DNA of 55,035 bases from NCBI GenBank assembly GCA_025454835.1, contig JALONQ010000018.1, positions 1 to 55,035 on the forward strand, in the 5' to 3' direction. This DNA is from Bacteroidota bacterium. GTDB taxonomy: Bacteria > Bacteroidota > Ignavibacteria > UBA10030. The notes below the pieces were generated by a model, which was not told the origin of the DNA, made no database searches, and saw nothing but the letters and a program-made list of their open reading frames with translations. A program made the position numbers and the translations under genes. Shown here one piece after another: positions 35,488 through 45,925 of this stretch. The first letter of the stretch is position 1, and each line of letters starts with the position of its first letter.

Positions 35488-36969
<1,482 letters not shown>

Positions 36970-37066
36970 TGCCTGGGAGGTGAAATGTGCACTCGAACCC
37001 TTAAAATAGCGAAAATTGATTCGAGAGGCAATCGAAGCGTGCGCCCTGGCCCGCCGGCCGGCGACC

Positions 37067-37095
37067 TTGACAATCCTCCCGGCGTTGCGTACTTT
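37067..37095 (+). promoter_or_regulatory. sigma70-like promoter for porU leader
   Basis: TTGACA (37067-37072), a 17-base spacer and TACTTT (37090-37095). The -35 is perfect and the -10 is imperfect. Predicted start near 37103, giving a leader of about 160 bases before porU. Confidence 0.45.
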
Positions 37096-37151
37096 GTTGT
37101 CGACCACATCAAGAGACCGACGCAAGTATCGAAGATTGATAAAGGTTCGTT

Positions 37152-37176
37152 CCCGTTGAACGCGATCTCCAACGGG
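37152..37176 (+). promoter_or_regulatory. leader hairpin upstream of porU
   Basis: cccgttg (37152-37158) pairs with caacggg (37170-37176) around an 11-base loop. It lies upstream of the terminator in the same leader. Confidence 0.4.
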
Positions 37177-37229
37177 TGATCTTGTTGCAATGAACGGCCT
37201 TTATCTGTCGACTGCACTTGCGTTCCAGC

Positions 37230-37259
37230 AAGCCGGACGGCAGACGTTCCGGCTTTTTT
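37230..37259 (+). terminator. intrinsic terminator in the porU leader (possible attenuator)
   Basis: aagccgga (37230-37237) pairs with tccggctt (37248-37255), followed by T-residues to 37259. Its T-tract ends four bases before the porU start codon. No plus-strand gene precedes it, because glgA is divergent, so it would terminate transcripts of the leader itself. Confidence 0.65.
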
Positions 37260-37263
37260 CGTT

Positions 37264-40200
37264 ATGCGACGTCCCCTCCTCCATATGATCCTGCTCGTCG
37301 CGGCCATGCCGGCCTCGGCGCAGGTCCACGCCGACCTTCGAGCGCTCCGTTCCACCGGTGTCGAAACCGAAGCGGTGCTCGTCGCGGGAGCCCTCGGCGG
37401 TGATACCGTCACAACGGCCTCGCTCCTTGGCGGTGAACGCATCGTGCCGTTCAACGACGGCCGCCTCGCGGTGGTGCGCCGGTTTGCCTTGACGCTGCCG
37501 ACCTCGCGCGTCAGCTTTACCACGCTCTCTCGCCAGACGCGGCTCGTTACGCTGCGAACCCCGGCCGATCCGGCCGTGACCGGGACGGAGGCGCCGTTCG
37601 AGGTCCGCGTGGTCGACGTCGCCCCCGGGTCGGGATCCGTCTCCGCGACGCTTGAGGCCGCGGTCGTCGTCGTCGATCCATCACGAACAACGGCGTCGAT
37701 CGTCGAGCGGCTTGCCGTCCGGTTGGAACATGACGCGCTCCACGAAGGACGCTCATCGGTCGTGGGCGTGAGCCTCGGGGCGACCTCTGTGCGCCCAGAG
37801 CGGCCGGCGGGGCCATCGCGTGCCGAGGCCGCACAGGAGTGGTATCGGATCGACTACAGCGAGACGGGCCTGTATCGGATCGACCGCACGTTGCTCCGTG
37901 CGGCGGGCGTGACGTCCGAGATGCTGAGTGATATCCGACGCATCCGTCTTTTCGGTCTGGCCGGCACACCGGTTCCGGAAGCCCTGACGGCTCCGCGACC
38001 AGCGGGGATGCAAGAGCTCCCTCGAATGATCCAGGACGCGAATCGGAACGGCGCCCTCGACGACGGCGACGCCGTGATCTTCTACGGTCGGTCAGTGCGC
38101 GACTGGCGCTACGATCCTGCGACCCGCACCTTCGCACACACGATCAATCCCTACAGCGAGAAGAACGCCGTCCTCCTGACGTTTGACCCGGCGGCCTTTG
38201 GGCGGGAGATGGACTCGCTCGTCTCTTCGACGGCGCCGGGCGTTCCGGTCCAGCACGTCGCGGGCCGCATCGCCGTCGACCAGGACCGGGTCAACTTTGT
38301 GAATTCGGGACGGCGATGGGTGGGTGAGCCGTTCGACGTGAACGACGCGACCGCGGTCTTCATGAACTCGTTGCCGGGCCTTGTTCCATCGGCGCGGGTG
38401 TCCTACCGGGCCGTGTTCTTTTCCCGGTCCGGCACGATCGATACGTTCCGGGTCGCCGAGAACGACCAGCCGGTGCTGGGTCCGGTACTCATGTTCACGT
38501 CGGACATTTCGTCCATCGATCAGACGTCCAACTACGCCTACGAATCGCCCGTCCAAAGCTTCACATACTCCGGAGCGCTGCCAGAGAACCGGAGCGTACT
38601 GAAGTTCACGTTCGGCACGCGCAATTCAAGCGCCAAAGCGTGGCTCGACTGGTTTGAGATCGTGTATCGCCGATCGATGACCGCCTCGAACGACCGGCTC
38701 TTCTTCCCGAGCCCCGATACGACGGCGGTGCTGGAGTACACCGTGCGTGACCTCTCTTCACGGTCGACGCTCGTGTTCGACGTGACGGACCATGCGAATG
38801 TCCGTCGCGTGGCTGGGGTCGAATTCGACGTCGCCGACGCGTCGATGTGCCGATTCCGCCTTCCTCAGACGGCTGGGTCGGTGCGCGAATTGGCGGTCGT
38901 CGGCGGGAACGGATTCCTGACGCCGCCGGCGCCGGTGAAGGTCGATGCGCCGACGCTCCGCTCGTTCGCCGGCCAGGCGCACTTCCTCATCCTGGCACCG
39001 AAGGAATTCCTCGAAGAGGCCGAACGCCTGCGCGCACACCGGCAGGCACAGGATTCGCTCAAGACGATGGTCGTTGATGTCGCCTCGATCTACAACGAGT
39101 TCGGCGGCGGACTTCCGGATCCGATGGCGATCAGGGACTTCCTGGCTTTCGCGCGGGCCAACTACGCCGGGCCGGTGCGCTACGCGCTGTTGTTTGGCAA
39201 CGGGCATTTCGATTACCGCAACATCGGCACCTCGGTCCGCAACTGGGTGCCTCCGTATGAGACGGCCGAGTCGAACTTTCAGATCTTGACATACGCCAGC
39301 GACGACTACTTCGCCCGCCTGGACGCCGGCAACGAGCGGATCTCAATGGCCATCGGACGACTACCGGGGAGGACCGTCGCGGAGATGCGCACGCTCGTCG
39401 GCAAGATCATCCGCTACGAGACGGAATCGCCGCTCGACCCGTGGCGGAACCGCATCACCTTCATCGCCGACGACGGCCAGACCTCCACGACGTTCGAAGG
39501 GAGCCTGCACACGGGGCAGGCGGAGAATCTGGCGCGCAACTACACGCCGGCGACGTTCGAGCAGAGGAAGATCTATCTCGTCGAGTACCCGGCGGTCAAC
39601 AGCGCTTCCGGTCGGCGCAAGCCGATGGTCAACGACGCGATCGTCGATGCGTTCAACCGCGGTACGCTCGTGATGAACTTCACCGGCCACGGCAATCCGC
39701 GGTTGTGGACGCACGAGGCGGTCTTCACGCGCGAGGGAAGCCTCCCGCGGCTGACGAACATCGACCGGCTGACGTTCCTCGTCGCCGCGACCTGCAACTT
39801 CGCCCAGTGGGACAATCCGGCCGAACAGAGCGCGGGAGAACTGCTGCTGACGATGCCCGAAGGGGGTGCGATCGGCGTGGTGACGGCGACGCGGTCGGTC
39901 TATTCGTTCGACAACGCCGAACTCAACAACGTGCTGTATCAACAGCTCTTCCAGCGTGACGGCAGCGGCCGCTCGCTGCGCATCGGAGACGCGTTCTACG
40001 CCATGAAGCAGATCCGCTTTCGCGAGAACGATCAGAAGTACCACTTGCTCGGAGATCCTACGCTTCGACTTCGCCAGCCGGCGGGGGTGGCGCGCATCGA
40101 CTCGGTGAACGGCGTGTCGACGGCCAGCATCTCGATCGTGCCGTCGCTAGGCCGGATACGGGTCGAAGGATCGGTGCGCGACGGGCTCGGCGCTCTTCGT

Positions 40201-41136
40201 GCCGATTTCTCGGGGCGCGGGATCCTGGAGCTCTTCGATGCCAAACGATCGGTCTCCGTGCAGGAATGGGGAGGGTACTCGTTCGAAGTGCAGGGAAGCG
40301 CGCTGTATCGCGGCGAAGTGACGATCACCGCCGGCCGGTATGCCGCCCAGGTGCCGGTGCCGAAGGACGTCAGCTTCGGTTCGCGCGCGAGGCTCTCGCT
40401 CTACGCCACGGCCGGTTCAACGGATGCCGCCGGCGTCACTGAGAACGTTTCGATCCTGGGAACCGACACGACCGTCGCGATCGACACCACAGGACCGGCG
40501 GTCGAGGTCTATGTCGGCACGACCGCTTTTCGCCCGGGAGATGTGGTGCCGCCGGACCCCGATCTGATCGTTGTTCTCTCCGACCTGAACGGGATCAACA
40601 CATCGACGGCCGGCATCGGCCATCGTCTGGAAGCAGAGCTCGTGGAGGCGGCGCGCGTCGTCGACCTGGGCGACCATTACCGGGGTGATCTGGATACGTA
40701 CCAAAGCGGACGGGCGATCGTGTCGCTCGCCGGCCTGGAAGAAGGGCGACATACGGTCCGCGTTCGCGCCTGGGATACGCACAACAATTCAGCGACGGCG
40801 GAGGCCGTCTTCGAGGTCCGCGATGGAAGCAGCGTCGATCTCTATCGGCCGACGAACGTTCCGAACCCGATGCGCAACGCGACGGCCTTCGCGTTCCAGC
40901 GGACATCGACCGATCCCGTTTCCGTGACTGTCCGCATCTTCACGATCGCCGGTCGGTTGATCCAGGAGCTGGAGTCGCACCACGTGACAGACGTCACAGT
41001 CCGCGTTCCATGGGACGGCCGCGACCGGGACGGTGCTGCAATCGCGAACGGGGTCTACGTGTACAAGATCATCGTGCGGTCTCATGACCGGTCAGAGTCG
41101 AGGGAGTTCATCGGGAAGCTGGCGGTGGTGCGGTGA
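37264..41136 (+). CDS. porU: type IX secretion system sortase PorU (C25 family)
   Basis: PorU is a gingipain-like cysteine protease at the cell surface that removes the C-terminal sorting domain from T9SS cargo and attaches cargo to the surface. This 1290-residue protein has a signal peptide (ending AMPASAQ). The C25 catalytic core has the histidine H809 in MNFTGHGNPRLWTHE and the cysteine C844 in VAATCNFAQWD. The protein ends with its own FlgD-like C-terminal domain of about 90 residues (VPNPMRNATAF, GRLIQELE, GVYVYKI). Both catalytic residues are intact. It is directly followed, after a 292-base spacer, by porV, its functional partner. The 160-base leader carries a terminator. A start at methionine 8 is possible but less likely. 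Confidence 0.93.
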   Translation: MRRPLLHMILLVAAMPASAQVHADLRALRSTGVETEAVLVAGALGGDTVTTASLLGGERIVPFNDGRLAVVRRFALTLPTSRVSFTTLSRQTRLVTLRTPADPAVTGTEAPFEVRVVDVAPGSGSVSATLEAAVVVVDPSRTTASIVERLAVRLEHDALHEGRSSVVGVSLGATSVRPERPAGPSRAEAAQEWYRIDYSETGLYRIDRTLLRAAGVTSEMLSDIRRIRLFGLAGTPVPEALTAPRPAGMQELPRMIQDANRNGALDDGDAVIFYGRSVRDWRYDPATRTFAHTINPYSEKNAVLLTFDPAAFGREMDSLVSSTAPGVPVQHVAGRIAVDQDRVNFVNSGRRWVGEPFDVNDATAVFMNSLPGLVPSARVSYRAVFFSRSGTIDTFRVAENDQPVLGPVLMFTSDISSIDQTSNYAYESPVQSFTYSGALPENRSVLKFTFGTRNSSAKAWLDWFEIVYRRSMTASNDRLFFPSPDTTAVLEYTVRDLSSRSTLVFDVTDHANVRRVAGVEFDVADASMCRFRLPQTAGSVRELAVVGGNGFLTPPAPVKVDAPTLRSFAGQAHFLILAPKEFLEEAERLRAHRQAQDSLKTMVVDVASIYNEFGGGLPDPMAIRDFLAFARANYAGPVRYALLFGNGHFDYRNIGTSVRNWVPPYETAESNFQILTYASDDYFARLDAGNERISMAIGRLPGRTVAEMRTLVGKIIRYETESPLDPWRNRITFIADDGQTSTTFEGSLHTGQAENLARNYTPATFEQRKIYLVEYPAVNSASGRRKPMVNDAIVDAFNRGTLVMNFTGHGNPRLWTHEAVFTREGSLPRLTNIDRLTFLVAATCNFAQWDNPAEQSAGELLLTMPEGGAIGVVTATRSVYSFDNAELNNVLYQQLFQRDGSGRSLRIGDAFYAMKQIRFRENDQKYHLLGDPTLRLRQPAGVARIDSVNGVSTASISIVPSLGRIRVEGSVRDGLGALRADFSGRGILELFDAKRSVSVQEWGGYSFEVQGSALYRGEVTITAGRYAAQVPVPKDVSFGSRARLSLYATAGSTDAAGVTENVSILGTDTTVAIDTTGPAVEVYVGTTAFRPGDVVPPDPDLIVVLSDLNGINTSTAGIGHRLEAELVEAARVVDLGDHYRGDLDTYQSGRAIVSLAGLEEGRHTVRVRAWDTHNNSATAEAVFEVRDGSSVDLYRPTNVPNPMRNATAFAFQRTSTDPVSVTVRIFTIAGRLIQELESHHVTDVTVRVPWDGRDRDGAAIANGVYVYKIIVRSHDRSESREFIGKLAVVR

Positions 41137-41247: not shown

Positions 41248-41323
41248 ATGAAGACTGCGTTGCGATTTGCGACGCTACATGAGTGAGAGAAGCGGTTTGC
41301 CGAGATCTGCAGATAGTCTTCAT
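41248..41323. other. nine-base inverted repeat in the porU-porV spacer
   Basis: atgaagact (41248-41256) and agtcttcat (41315-41323), 58 bases apart. The 292-base spacer (41137-41428) otherwise holds a word repeat, and a tatattta element at 41386-41393 that could be part of the porV promoter. Confidence 0.35.
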
Positions 41324-41428
41324 GCTTTGGCTTTGCTCTGCGATACGCTTTTGTCGAGCAGATTGCGAGTCCCCACGTCATTCTCTATATTTAGTCACTA
41401 CAGCGTTCGTCTCAAGAGGAGAGGTGTC

Positions 41429-42535
41429 ATGAAGTTCCGGATCCTGTTGGCGGTTCTTGTGGTGGTTTCCGCGGTCCTGCCGTTGTCGGCGCAGGTCACG
41501 ACATCGGCGGTGCCGTTCCTGCTCATCGCCCCGAATTCGCGCGCCAGCGCCATGGGCGAGGCGGGTGTGGCGCTTGCGGATGATGCATGGGCCATCTATT
41601 GGAACCCGGCCGGCTTCGCGTTCCAGAACAGCACCGAAGCGGCACTGACCCGGGCCGACTGGTTGCCCGCGTTCGGTCTCTCGGACCTGTGGATCGCCCA
41701 CGGCGTCTACAAGCAGCCCCTGGAGGAGGTCGATGGCGTGGTCGGCGTGGCCGTTACCTACCTCAGCCTCGGTTCCTTCGTGAAGACCCTGAACGATCCG
41801 ACGCCTCTCGAAGAGTTCAAGGGCTATGAATTTGCCATCACGGTGGGCTACGGCACCAAGGTCGGAAGCGACCTCGGACTCGGCGTGAACGGGCGGCTGA
41901 TTCACAGCAGCCTGGCCCCGTTCGGCACGGCGAACGAACAAGGAGAGGGGATCGCCACGGGCTTTGCGTTCGACCTGGGACTGCTCTACCGGCCTTCGAG
42001 CCTCTTCGTTCCGTTCACGGACATCGACATGGGCAACGCTTGGAGCTTCGGTCTGGCCCTCTCGAACGTCGGTCCCAAACTCACCTACATCGACAAGGCT
42101 CAGGCCGACCCGCTCCCGATGAACCTCCGGTTGGGATTCGCGTACCGCGCCCTCGAGTCGGAATACAACAGCATCACGCTCATCGGCGATATCAGCCGTC
42201 TGCTCATAACCCGGCGCGGCGCGGAGACCGACGAATTCTACAAGGCGATGTTCACGACGTGGTCGCAGGGCTCGTTCTTCAAGGACCAGATGCGGCAGTT
42301 CGTGACCGGCCTCGGCGTCGAGTACTGGTACGGCGCCCCACGGCTCATCGCCCTCCGGGCAGGCTATTTCTACGAGGACCCGCGCTCCGGCAACCGGAAG
42401 TTCATGACCTTCGGCGCCGGCGTCCGCTATGACATCTACGGATTCGACTTCAGCTATATCAGCGCCTTCGAAGACCAGCATCCTCTCGGCGAGACGCTGC
42501 GGTTCTCGCTGGCCATTTCCTGGGGCGGAATGTGA
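41429..42535 (+). CDS. porV: type IX secretion system outer-membrane protein PorV
   Basis: PorV (LptO) is the outer-membrane shuttle barrel that binds T9SS cargo by its C-terminal domain and delivers it to PorU. The 368-residue protein has a signal peptide (LPLSAQ). Near the N-terminus the PorV hallmark appears: FLLIAPNSRASAMGEAGVALADDAWAIYWNPAGFAF. A 14-strand-type barrel follows, with VGPKLTYI and GAGVRYDIYGFDFSYI blocks. The ATG at 41429 is preceded by a strong AGAGGAGAGG Shine-Dalgarno, so it was preferred over the open frame from 41267. The porU-porV order is typical of Bacteroidota. Confidence 0.93.
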   Translation: MKFRILLAVLVVVSAVLPLSAQVTTSAVPFLLIAPNSRASAMGEAGVALADDAWAIYWNPAGFAFQNSTEAALTRADWLPAFGLSDLWIAHGVYKQPLEEVDGVVGVAVTYLSLGSFVKTLNDPTPLEEFKGYEFAITVGYGTKVGSDLGLGVNGRLIHSSLAPFGTANEQGEGIATGFAFDLGLLYRPSSLFVPFTDIDMGNAWSFGLALSNVGPKLTYIDKAQADPLPMNLRLGFAYRALESEYNSITLIGDISRLLITRRGAETDEFYKAMFTTWSQGSFFKDQMRQFVTGLGVEYWYGAPRLIALRAGYFYEDPRSGNRKFMTFGAGVRYDIYGFDFSYISAFEDQHPLGETLRFSLAISWGGM

Positions 42536-42541
42536 TCGACC

Positions 42542-42580
42542 CCGGAAGCGGAACGCCACCATCGGCCGTTCCGCTTCCGG
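42542..42580 (+). terminator. 14-base-pair hairpin after porV
   Basis: ccggaagcggaacg (42542-42555) pairs perfectly with cgttccgcttccgg (42567-42580) around an 11-base loop. There is no T-tract. Confidence 0.65.
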
Positions 42581-42721
42581 ACCACGAAAGCCCCCGCATC
42601 CGACGGATCCACCCAGACCATCCGCAGCCGGCGTGTCGACCCGCTGACGTCGATCTGCCTGCGACAGCGGTCGGCCTCGTGCGATCCGGTCCCAGTCGCC
42701 CACGTCCTGTCACGACACTCC

Positions 42722-45700
42722 ATGCGATCTCTTCGACGTGATCCTCGCGCCTTCGTTGCCGGCCTGCTGCTCGTGTGCCTGGCAACGACAGCGCTGGCAC
42801 AACGCGCCGTCCGCTTCGATCCGACCCGGCCGCTCGCTCCGTTCCGTTCCGCCGTCGCGCCGCGCGTCGCCGCGCCCGACACGGTGCGCCTGCTCGGCAT
42901 CATGGTCGAATTCGTCGCCGATACCGACGTCCGAACGACCGGCAACGGCCGCTTCGACACGACCGTGACGAACCCGGCCATCATCGACCCGCCGTTGCAC
43001 GATGCCGCCTTCTTCAACGCCAAGTTCCGGTTCGTCGAGAACTACTTCCGCCGTGTCTCTGACGGAAAGCTCATTCTCAAGGGGGACCTGATTCCGACCG
43101 TGTTGCGGGTGGACCGGACGATGGTCCAGTACGCCGTGCAGACCAGCCCATCCTTCCGGGGCCTCGCCCAGTTGGCCGTCGATGCGTGGCGCAAAGCCGA
43201 CAGCGTTTCCCCTGGCACCAACTTCGCCGGCTACGATGCATTCGTGCTCTTTCATGCCGGCACCGGCAAGGACATCGACCTCGTCGGCATCTTCGGGTAC
43301 GACCCCGCGCCGTACGACCTGCCTTCGGTGTACCTTGGCCTCGACGCGTTTCGTAACGCCCTCGACAGCGCTGCGTTCAATGGCATCGCCGTCAAGGGGG
43401 GCGCCTTTCGCATCACGAACACGATGATCCTGCCCGAAACGGAGACGCGGTCCTTTCCGTCATCCGGCGGCGCCGACACGCTTGAGCTTTCGACGAACGG
43501 CCTGTTTGCGGCCTCGGTGGGGAGCTACCTTGGCCTTCCGGACCTCTTTGACACGAAGACCGGCCGGCCTGGCATCGGTCAATATGGGCTGATGGACGGA
43601 GCGGCGATCTTCGCCTATCAAGGGATCTGTCCGCCCGAGCCCAATGCGTGGGAGAAGATGCAGTTGGGCTGGATCACGCCGATCGAGGTGACGGCGACGC
43701 TTGATACGCTCCGTTTGCCGGCGGTCGGGCTGACGACGGTGAACGATTCTGTCTACCGCGTGCGCATCACGGACACCGAATACTACCTCGTGGAGAACCG
43801 TCATCGCGACCCTGGACACAACGGCCAGCGCCTGACCATCTATCGCAACGGGACCACAACGGTCCTGGCCATCCCGACCGATTCGGCGGGGTTCTACACG
43901 TTCGATGTCATCCAGGGCATCGACGGAACGGTCATCGACGTCGAAGATCCCGACTGGTCGCTCATCGGCCGGTTCGGCACCGACGGACGGTTCGACGGCG
44001 GCGGCATCCATATCTGGCACATTGACGAAGCGCGCATCGCAGCCGGCCGGTTGGACAACACGGTCAACGCCGATCCGTTGCGCCGCGGGGTGGACCTTGA
44101 GGAAGCGGACGGCTCGCAGGATATCGGTGAGTCGTATCCGTTCCTCGAAGCAGGCGCCGGTTCCGAGTCGGGCTCGCCGCTCGACGCGTGGTTCAACGGG
44201 AATGAAGCCCTGCCTTATGCCAATCGATTCGACGACGCTTCGTTCCCCAACAGCCGTTCGAACAGCGGCGCCGCCAGCCTCGTGTCGATCCGCGACTTCT
44301 CGCCGCGCGGCGTGCGGATGACGGCGGTGGTCGAGCGAGGCACGGCGTTGGCCGTTCCGCTGGCTGGATTCCCGAAGCAGGTGCCGGGCGACCTGGGACC
44401 GGCGACGGCCGTGGACCTCGACGGCAACGGCCACGCCGAGTTCGTGACGAGCCGGGTTCTGCGCTCCGGCCCTTCGGGTCGGACCGGATCGCCCGTCGGT
44501 CAGGGAGCGATCCTCGCCTGGACGCCGTCCGGGGTCTCCGTCACGAATGCCGCAGACAGCTCAGGCCTTGCGGCGTTGGTGGATGAACCGATCATCGGGA
44601 CGCCGGCCTTTGCACCGCATCCGTCGGGCGGTGCGCTGGTCGCTGCCGCCGCGGCCCCTGGACGTCTGTACGTGTGGCGCGCTGAAGATCTCAATGCCGA
44701 TCAGCGGTGGGACGAGATCGCGAGGGTCTCGCTCCCGGCCGATACGGCCGCATGGTCCACCGTCATCGTCGACACGATCGTGATCGCTTACGGCGCTCCG
44801 GGTGTCGCCGTTCGGTCCATCCATGGAGCCCAGGTCGCCTCGTTCGTGCCCGGCGCTCAGGCCGTAGCATGGACCGGTATGTCGCGGCGATTCGTCGCGG
44901 GCGTGGGCGACCAGATCTATCGGCTGGACATCTCGGCTGCAAGTCGGGCCTTGGATGTGTTCGCGCCGATCGCGTCGGCTGGCGGCCGGGTGACCTCCGT
45001 CGTCTCGGCCATGATCGATGCGACGAGCTCGGCGACCGCCGTGCAGAGCATCGGACGGGCGGGGGCGAGCCGCATCACGATCTTGAGCGGCGTGGATCTT
45101 TCGGTGCTTCGGTCATTCGATCTCTCATCGGGTCTCGGCTCGGGAGAGACGATCCTTCCCGTGCTTGCGTTCGCCGACGTGGATCGGGATGGACACAAGG
45201 AATTGCTCGCGCCGACCTCAGCCGGCAGGGTCGTGATGTCGTCGGTGGAGGGCGTGTGGATCGAGGGGTCTCCGGCGGCTTTGGCGCCGCGCTCCGCTTG
45301 GAAACAGGTCGAGCTCCTGGCGGCAGGCGTGGGGTCGGATATCGCTCCGGATCTTCTGGCTGCCGACGATCGGGGCGTGTTGACCTCGAGCTTGAGCGGA
45401 TTCAGCGGGGGATTTCAAGTGGCGAATTCCTCCGCCACGTCGGCGTCGGTGGGTGTTCTCCAGACGATGCACGGCGCTTCGACCGCCCTCTTTTTGACGG
45501 ACGCGAGCGGCGGAGTGTGGGGGTATGATATGAAGGCGGCGTGGAGCGCTCCGGCGGCGGCCTGGACTTCGCGCAACGGTGGACCGGCACGCACTTCGTT
45601 CTTGGCGCTTGCGACCTCAGCGCCGAAGCCTCTGGCATCCGGTGTCTTGCCGCCGGAGCGGGTCTACAATTGGCCCAATCCAGTCTACGGGAACGAGACG

Positions 45701-45925
45701 CGTATACGCTTCTTCACCCAGCACGACGGCACCGTGACGGTGACGATCTTCGACCTCACCGGCGACACGATCACGACGCTCCGCGGGTCCGCGGTGGGGG
45801 GGCAGGATAACGAGATCGTGTGGGACGTGCGAGGCATACAGAGCGGAGTGTATCTGGCGAAGGTGGAAGTGAGTGGAGCGGGAGGAAGCGGAGGGGCGGT
45901 CGTGAAGGTGGCGGTGGTGAAGTAG
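42722..45925 (+). CDS. T9SS client resembling M6 immune inhibitor A protease but lacking HExxH (predicted pseudoprotease)
   Basis: This 1067-residue exported protein starts with a signal peptide (ATTALAQ). An M6 (immune inhibitor A)-like region spans about residues 50-440. It keeps the LGLPDLFD, GIGQYGLMDG, NAWEKMQLGW and IWHIDEARI blocks. The place where these proteases have HExGH reads ASVGS (residues 264-268). Both histidines and the glutamate are therefore replaced and no other HExxH occurs, so zinc proteolysis is not expected. A beta-propeller-like region follows. The protein ends in a T9SS type A sorting domain (NWPNPVYGNETRI, GQDNEIVWDVRGIQSGVYLAKV). It lies right behind porU-porV and is a likely client. 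It may act as a surface adhesin or binding protein, which is an inference. Confidence 0.8.
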   Translation: MRSLRRDPRAFVAGLLLVCLATTALAQRAVRFDPTRPLAPFRSAVAPRVAAPDTVRLLGIMVEFVADTDVRTTGNGRFDTTVTNPAIIDPPLHDAAFFNAKFRFVENYFRRVSDGKLILKGDLIPTVLRVDRTMVQYAVQTSPSFRGLAQLAVDAWRKADSVSPGTNFAGYDAFVLFHAGTGKDIDLVGIFGYDPAPYDLPSVYLGLDAFRNALDSAAFNGIAVKGGAFRITNTMILPETETRSFPSSGGADTLELSTNGLFAASVGSYLGLPDLFDTKTGRPGIGQYGLMDGAAIFAYQGICPPEPNAWEKMQLGWITPIEVTATLDTLRLPAVGLTTVNDSVYRVRITDTEYYLVENRHRDPGHNGQRLTIYRNGTTTVLAIPTDSAGFYTFDVIQGIDGTVIDVEDPDWSLIGRFGTDGRFDGGGIHIWHIDEARIAAGRLDNTVNADPLRRGVDLEEADGSQDIGESYPFLEAGAGSESGSPLDAWFNGNEALPYANRFDDASFPNSRSNSGAASLVSIRDFSPRGVRMTAVVERGTALAVPLAGFPKQVPGDLGPATAVDLDGNGHAEFVTSRVLRSGPSGRTGSPVGQGAILAWTPSGVSVTNAADSSGLAALVDEPIIGTPAFAPHPSGGALVAAAAAPGRLYVWRAEDLNADQRWDEIARVSLPADTAAWSTVIVDTIVIAYGAPGVAVRSIHGAQVASFVPGAQAVAWTGMSRRFVAGVGDQIYRLDISAASRALDVFAPIASAGGRVTSVVSAMIDATSSATAVQSIGRAGASRITILSGVDLSVLRSFDLSSGLGSGETILPVLAFADVDRDGHKELLAPTSAGRVVMSSVEGVWIEGSPAALAPRSAWKQVELLAAGVGSDIAPDLLAADDRGVLTSSLSGFSGGFQVANSSATSASVGVLQTMHGASTALFLTDASGGVWGYDMKAAWSAPAAAWTSRNGGPARTSFLALATSAPKPLASGVLPPERVYNWPNPVYGNETRIRFFTQHDGTVTVTIFDLTGDTITTLRGSAVGGQDNEIVWDVRGIQSGVYLAKVEVSGAGGSGGAVVKVAVVK

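Follow-up and report, generated by a model that had tools for sequence, protein, structure and literature searches.

The T9SS sortase gene porU is preceded, in the window analysed here (the whole 55,035-nucleotide stretch of contig JALONQ010000018.1 from a Bacteroidota bacterium), by an RNA leader that is most likely, judging from its sequence and that of its relatives, a conserved cis-regulatory element of the attenuator or riboswitch type dedicated to this gene. The reading as a cis-acting attenuation leader devoted to porU was given a probability of about 0.75. Its parts, conservation, covariation and attachment to porU come from sequence comparison, the competing 2:3 structure comes from folding models, and the start site, the equation of the hairpin state with OFF and the existence of a trigger are presumed. 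Since the same RNA was found before porU in many related species, a real on/off control is probable.

An earlier note on this DNA had proposed a leader under attenuation or riboswitch-type control. The architecture it described was borne out by conservation across the order and part of the class, together with covariation and predicted competing folds, whereas the role it gave to a 32-codon frame was not.

Locus and parts of the leader

The leader region lies between the divergent genes glgA and porU (37067-37263) and includes a hairpin of about 105 nt; its features are collected in Table 1. The intrinsic terminator sits between the promoter and the porU start codon with no intervening gene, as in an attenuator. 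The terminator arms AAGCCGGA and TCCGGCTT pair 37230-37237 with 37248-37255, and the T-tract (37254-37259) ends four bases before the porU ATG at 37264. The promoter, the hairpin and the terminator named in the earlier note were all read directly in the sequence, its assignment of the gene to porU agreed with NF033707, and no plus-strand gene was present directly upstream, the neighbour glgA being on the minus strand.

The 5' side of the internal loop reads AUCGAA in the window and mostly UAUCGA or UAUAG in relatives. Among 53 sequences, conservation reaches 90% or more at leader positions A18, T19 and G21.

Regarding the surroundings, glgA and porU are divergent neighbours over much of the order (35488-37264 in the window, and many fetched loci). 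The porV-like gene reached 248.2 bits against NF033710 (PorV), for which the cut-off is 250, and together with a gene for a T9SS-dependent M6-like protein it makes up a T9SS cluster 3' of porU (41267-45925).

Table 1. Coordinates of the porU leader and its neighbouring genes in the window
Feature	Position	Strand	Basis
Promoter TTGACA (37067-37072), 17 bases, TACTTT (37090-37095)	37067..37095	+	Sequence
P1, 5' strand of the long hairpin	37119..37127	+	MFE fold; arm-pairing comparison, 53 leaders
5' side of internal loop, AUCGAA, candidate recognition site	37128..37133	+	Unpaired in window fold
P2 arm 1 (GAU.GAUAAAGGU)	37134..37146	+	MFE; helix 1 of alignment A1
Apical hairpin CCCGTTG/CAACGGG (37152-37158 with 37170-37176)	37152..37176	+	Sequence; helix 2 of A1
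P2 arm 2 (GCCUUUAUC.GUC)	37197..37209	+	MFE fold; A1 covariation
P1, 3' strand	37216..37224	+	MFE fold; arm-pairing comparison
Predicted antiterminator (37204-37221 with 37228-37244)	37204..37244	+	MFE with arm 1 and all 5' bases unpaired
Intrinsic terminator (arms 3:4) with T-tract	37230..37259	+	Terminator scan; helix 3 of A1
porU, T9SS sortase, gene behind the leader	37264..41136	+	NCBIfam NF033707, E 6e-265; PF01364
porV-like gene 3' of porU, possibly same transcript	41267..42535	+	NF033709 above cut-off
glgA, divergent neighbour	35488..36969	-	TIGR02095

The leader (37102-37275) folds at -62.2 kcal/mol, with a z-score of -3.86 against dinucleotide shuffles, none of 200 being as good. The MFE fold of the window comprises P1, the AUCGAA internal loop, P2, an apical part and then the terminator; in the apical part, this single-sequence fold favours a structure other than the 37152-37176 hairpin. 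The terminator scan of the window returned two sites versus 1.2 in shuffles, which is near chance, and the output of the promoter scan did not contain the TTGACA/TACTTT promoter, because TACTTT matches TATAAT at only three of six positions. Consequently, the case rests on comparison.

Conservation, covariation and linkage to porU

Sixty genomes of the same family or order served as relatives, and the porU upstream region was fetched for 56 of them (all except G012, G023, G051 and G053). The leader was present in 54 of the 56 regions, the other two (L078, L086) being cut by contig ends. Leaders of the same plan were recognised by motif in 52 relatives, 51 by script and one (L048) with its terminator read separately. 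Together with the window they form the aligned set of 53, outside which remain the two cut regions and two divergent forms matched by the covariance model R1, namely L059 (core present, second terminator unrecognised) and L087 (variant core). The leader ends of L043 and L048 were corrected by hand, and the 3' arm and terminator position of L061 were set by hand.

A promoter-like site matching TTGACA/TATATT at 9 or more of 12 positions was found 5' of the hairpin in 51 of the 53 leaders, compared to 11% of control windows, consistent with the promoter of the earlier note. This site ends 36 to 54 bases 5' of the core, apart from the doubtful calls in L057 (24), L077 (67) and L079 (63).

In sequence alignment A1, comprising 28 leaders, 92.2% of pair cells were standard, and this value fell to about 56% when the partner was slid by one base. 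Changes on both sides were observed in 13 of 26 pairs, compared to 6.4 in shuffles, and none of 500 shuffles reached 13, although these covariation controls are inflated by relatedness. For helix 1 (the P2 arms), 91.9% of cells were paired across the 28 leaders. Helix 2, which corresponds to the apical hairpin singled out in the earlier note, showed both-side changes in three of four pairs, with the window row set one base off by MAFFT. Helix 3, the terminator of that note, showed them in seven of ten pairs, with 94.6% of cells paired.

The RNAalifold consensus of all 53 leaders contained the terminator only, because MAFFT misaligns P1 and the apical parts, and arm-pairing tests were therefore used instead. 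The P1 strand paired with its own 3' arm at a mean of -15.4 kcal/mol over the 53 leaders, compared to -11.1 with arms of species from the same family and -9.2 with those of other families. This pairing beat shuffles at p ≤ 0.05 in 40 of the 53 leaders (p 0.035 in the window).

On this sequence evidence, the promoter, the hairpin and the terminator are conserved, with compensatory changes, and a chance terminator was rejected on the conservation and covariation among leaders. The hairpin, its loop residues and the covariation together describe a conserved, structured, sensor-like domain before porU, as expected of a riboswitch. The earlier note had asked for covariation and for conserved upstream structure in relatives, and had named unconserved hairpins as evidence against its reading; both were found, and the hairpins are conserved.

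Covariance model R1 was built from the 28 leaders of family f1 and applied to 61 genomes at a threshold of E ≤ 0.01. It gave 51 matches in 49 genomes, 47 of which had a single match, and by coordinates 47 of the 51 stand immediately 5' of porU and in its orientation. Two others (G012, G027) are neighbours of glgA at the ends of contigs that yielded no porU, and two are second, weak matches elsewhere (G022, G005). The 12 genomes with no R1 match comprise eight with a leader recognised by eye (L061-L066, L071, L082), three in which porU is cut by a contig end, and G051; R1 recovered only one of seven f6 members.

With stricter filters, R1 matched 17 of 395 genomes of the phylum at E ≤ 0.001, nine of them within the order. 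Two matches (L095, L098) stand before porU in another family of the class. Six (L097, L099, L100, L102, L104, L105) were set aside as terminator-only by eye, with no porU found within 1.5 kb.

A DNA pattern scan of genome_contigs (84,980 species according to the tool description), which covers only part of the known leaders, returned 22 places, 20 of them before porU, compared to a chance forecast of about four that was computed for a looser form of the pattern. In 16 of the 22, porU was located by tblastn; four further loci end early, and porU was shown there by the contig (L128, L140, L141) or by reading (L130). The remaining two, L136 and L142, were rejected, as they have no porU and appear by eye to lie inside other coding sequence. 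Several of the 22 matches are genomes of the relatives, so the scan is only partly independent. The named matches are mostly metagenome assemblies labelled Ignavibacteriales, Ignavibacteria, Ignavibacteriae, Bacteroidetes or Bacteroidota, including isolate UBA10030; the NCBI taxonomy places Ignavibacteria under Ignavibacteriota.

The leader remains linked to porU in genomes in which no glgA was found beside porU, and inheritance with glgA only was rejected on that ground. The same observation bears on the idea of a free trans-acting small RNA with its own promoter and terminator, behind which porU would stand by inherited gene order and be read by leak-through. Such an RNA would account for the compact promoter-hairpin-terminator unit seen in most leaders and for the single match per genome reported above, but the leader stays with porU where no glgA was found next to it, and in all 28 f1 leaders no more than 9 bases (0 to 9) separate the end of the T-tract from the first ATG or GTG. 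Furthermore, in family f7 of the wider class the predicted 3' arm falls within the porU coding sequence, which a free RNA leaves unexplained. A trans-acting RNA is thus considered unlikely, and attenuation in cis is preferred.

Predicted competing folds and proposed mode of control

In the proposed mechanism, RNA polymerase would start near 37100 and transcribe arm 1 followed by arm 2. Pairing between the two arms would produce the long P1/P2 hairpin, which contains the conserved UAUCGA/UAUAG loop; the 3:4 terminator would follow, and transcription would stop four bases before porU. If arm 1 were held from pairing, arm 2 and its flank would instead capture the terminator's 5' arm (2:3), allowing transcription of porU. 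Some factor (a metabolite, a protein, an RNA or a physical signal) would shift the balance between 1:2 and 2:3; among the leaders and in the Rfam comparison, no conserved ORF or known sensor pointing to a trigger was found.

When arm 1 and all 5' bases of the window were kept unpaired and the transcript was ended at the terminator loop, the antiterminator of Table 1 was predicted, with 15 base pairs. It is incompatible with P1, with part of P2 and with the terminator, as the alternative structure of an attenuator would be, and it stays the best fold even with the terminator 3' arm present. The statement of the earlier note that no antiterminator was evident beyond cttgc/gcaag was therefore too cautious. 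Under the same blocking, eight of eight other leaders formed 2:3 before the terminator 3' arm exists. At full length, with arm 1 blocked, seven of these eight returned to the terminator at equilibrium, while L049 and the window did not; the choice of a switch would therefore have to fall during transcription.

Over the 53 leaders, 2:3 pairing averaged 16.1 base pairs, compared to 8.7 in shuffles. It reached p ≤ 0.05 in 34 leaders by energy, but in only 18 by base-pair count; by family, the energy test was passed by 19 of 28 leaders in f1, 4 of 4 in f2, 5 of 7 in f3, 2 of 2 in f4, 3 of 5 in f5 and 1 of 7 in f6. For the window itself, the 2:3 structure was of marginal significance relative to shuffles (energy p 0.09, base-pair p 0.065). 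A narrower duplex test was passed by 39 of the 53 leaders and failed by the window (p 0.6); as it missed the window's own alternative pairing, the wider test was also used and both are reported.

The simple UUCGG:CCGAA form of the pairing gave 79.9% paired cells in the f1 alignment, compared to 77.2 in shuffles. Three of its eight pairs changed on both sides, a count reached by 360 of 500 shuffles, and the number of such cells was reached by 2 of 500. Family f2 lacks this form, and in f3 and f5 it is weak. Taken at the family level, the alternative 2:3 fold is supported by these models, with weaker support in f6 and in the window alone. As a separate observation, the terminator loop in f2 (L073-L076) holds a copy of arm 1 (GUUAAAGGU or GUUGAAGGU), so that arm 2 can pair with either.

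The return of seven leaders to the terminator fold would also suit a constitutive 5' UTR device, in which the hairpin and a leaky terminator fix a low porU level, or protect or process the mRNA (e.g., through RNase III), with no switching. Very long stems, near-perfect in f60, and the lack of a known trigger fit this explanation as well. It is nevertheless regarded as distinctly unlikely, since a fixed terminator has no need of the 2:3 pairing that exceeds shuffles in several families.

The predicted 1:2, 2:3 and 3:4 layout is equally that of ribosome-mediated, trp-like attenuation, in which the position of a ribosome on a short frame over arm 1 (UUG NUA AAG GUU ...) would decide between 1:2 and 2:3. 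A UUG is located at the core in 45 of the 53 leaders, and many f1 members have an early stop in the UUG frame. However, the frame length is unconserved across families, UUG is missing from the core place in f6, many of the stop codons fall in the covarying apical helix, and no start codon with a nearby ribosome-binding site was evident by eye. Ribosome control is accordingly thought highly unlikely, and a leader-peptide attenuator was rejected because the short frame over arm 1 varies in length and lacks its UUG in f6. In the window, the UUG frame covers about 37136-37160 (UUG AUA AAG GUU CGU UCC CGU UGA), and it is similar in many f1 members and inconsistent elsewhere.

Coupling through the 32-codon frame (37190-37288) proposed in the earlier note found no counterpart of the same kind. 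In 28 of the 53 leaders, including the window, an out-of-frame reading frame overlaps both the terminator and the start codon that comes first after it, but these frames differ in start, frame and length, and the 32-codon frame therefore looks like chance.

Wider class and comparison with known systems

Twenty porU upstream regions from 15 families of the wider class were judged by eye for the presence of a leader. A related leader was recognised in ten (families f7, f10, f18, f58, f60 and f61), and none was recognised by eye in the other ten (f9, f11, f12, f13, f15, f16, f57, f59 and f62); in f57, f59 and f62, porU seems to lie close behind another gene. Twenty further regions, purposely taken from positive families, looked related by eye, with L160 and L163 being the least clear.

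The output part of these leaders varied. In f61 (L109, L110, L161), the hairpin itself ends in a U-tract, and in f60 (L111, L158), a near-perfect stem of about 20 pairs is followed by a terminator. In f58, L165 and L166 (G468, G462) lie upstream of tandem porU genes, and the 3' arm of the outer-copy hairpin spans a likely start region with no evident terminator, unlike L106, L107 and L164, where a terminator is present. Within the order, four f5 members (L060, L080, L082, L083) carry a U-tract behind P1 and, between it and porU, a second terminator, an apparent tandem of terminators.

In f7 (L115, L116, L148-L156), a 5' arm that in most members contains GGAG and UAUAGA pairs with a stretch of porU codons just past the start, 57 to 101 bases further on. 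The mean energy was -21.3 kcal/mol compared to -14.2 for cross-species pairing, in 7 of 11 leaders no cross-species combination was as good as the own one, and p ≤ 0.003 was obtained in 11 of 11, values that flatter the pairing because the arms were picked by eye for apparent complementarity. The porU coding sequence of f7 is possibly constrained by RNA pairing.

Three layouts were thus distinguished: a terminator behind the hairpin, a hairpin with its own U-tract (f61), and a hairpin reaching into porU codons (f7). Formation of the hairpin should lower porU expression in each of them, which would be the simplest account of one element with three outputs. A further step would be to regard the leader as a new riboswitch-like RNA class, confined to the T9SS sortase gene in an Ignavibacteria-related clade, whose single sensor hairpin serves three outputs and directly senses a signal related to the cell envelope or secretion; this is put forward tentatively, as a possibility that is rather doubtful as yet.

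In the consulted parts of open-licence papers on porU/T9SS regulation, attenuation and structured-RNA surveys, no description of a porU leader was found, and the main text of a survey of premature terminators, as far as available, does not name porU (PMC2965389). In Porphyromonas, PorX/PorY and a sigma factor control the T9SS genes (PMC8265659, PMC8050853). For Flavobacterium psychrophilum, a promoter table in the section on alternative sigma factors includes porU, whose expression is induced on blood and when osmolarity is high (PMC9723704). If the sortase gene were switched at the RNA level, this would represent an additional layer of control, separate from these, in a clade whose named members are mostly metagenome assemblies, and it would provide a defined orphan RNA for which a trigger could be sought in vitro.

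A comparison with 4227 Rfam families gave no match in the window at the gathering level and none beyond chance at a relaxed level; among 20 relatives, the output was limited to a tRNA and a single chance match. By Rfam, the leader does not belong to a described riboswitch class.

The long hairpin with its own promoter and terminator could suggest the 6S RNA of this lineage, followed by porU. A search of the window's genome for RF00013 gave nothing at E ≤ 10, and only 5 of 61 class genomes match it (E ≤ 0.1), which would leave room for such an identity. Two leader-bearing genomes, however, have a separate RF00013 match: in G097 it exceeds the cut-off and lies on contig C35, with the leader on C28, and in G006 it is below the cut-off (E 3.6e-6) and lies on C47, with the leader on C12. 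No match to RF00013 or RF01685 was obtained at the leader, the RF01685 search having no positive control genome. The 6S identity is hardly credible and was rejected on the absent leader match and the separate matches in these two genomes. Like 6S RNA (RF00013), the porU leader has a long hairpin, its own promoter and usually one copy; unlike it, the leader is tied to porU, has competing folds and coexists with a separate 6S match in the two genomes.

Riboswitch and attenuator leaders possess mutually exclusive antiterminator and terminator structures. The porU leader shares with them the 5' position, an own promoter, a sensor-like hairpin, a predicted antiterminator and a terminator just before the gene, as well as the occurrence of other output layouts in relatives; it differs in having no Rfam match and in standing before one gene only. 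In trp-type attenuators, control proceeds through 1:2, 2:3 and 3:4 pairing, and the same logic is predicted for the porU leader, which differs from them in the absence of a conserved leader peptide.

Protein-controlled attenuators are described for L10(L12)4 on rplJL and for TRAP on trp (PMC4538822, PMC3913778). Compared with these accounts, porU encodes a secretion component and its leader has no assigned binding protein; the likeness proposed here is that a factor acting on the nascent leader would decide between termination and read-through.
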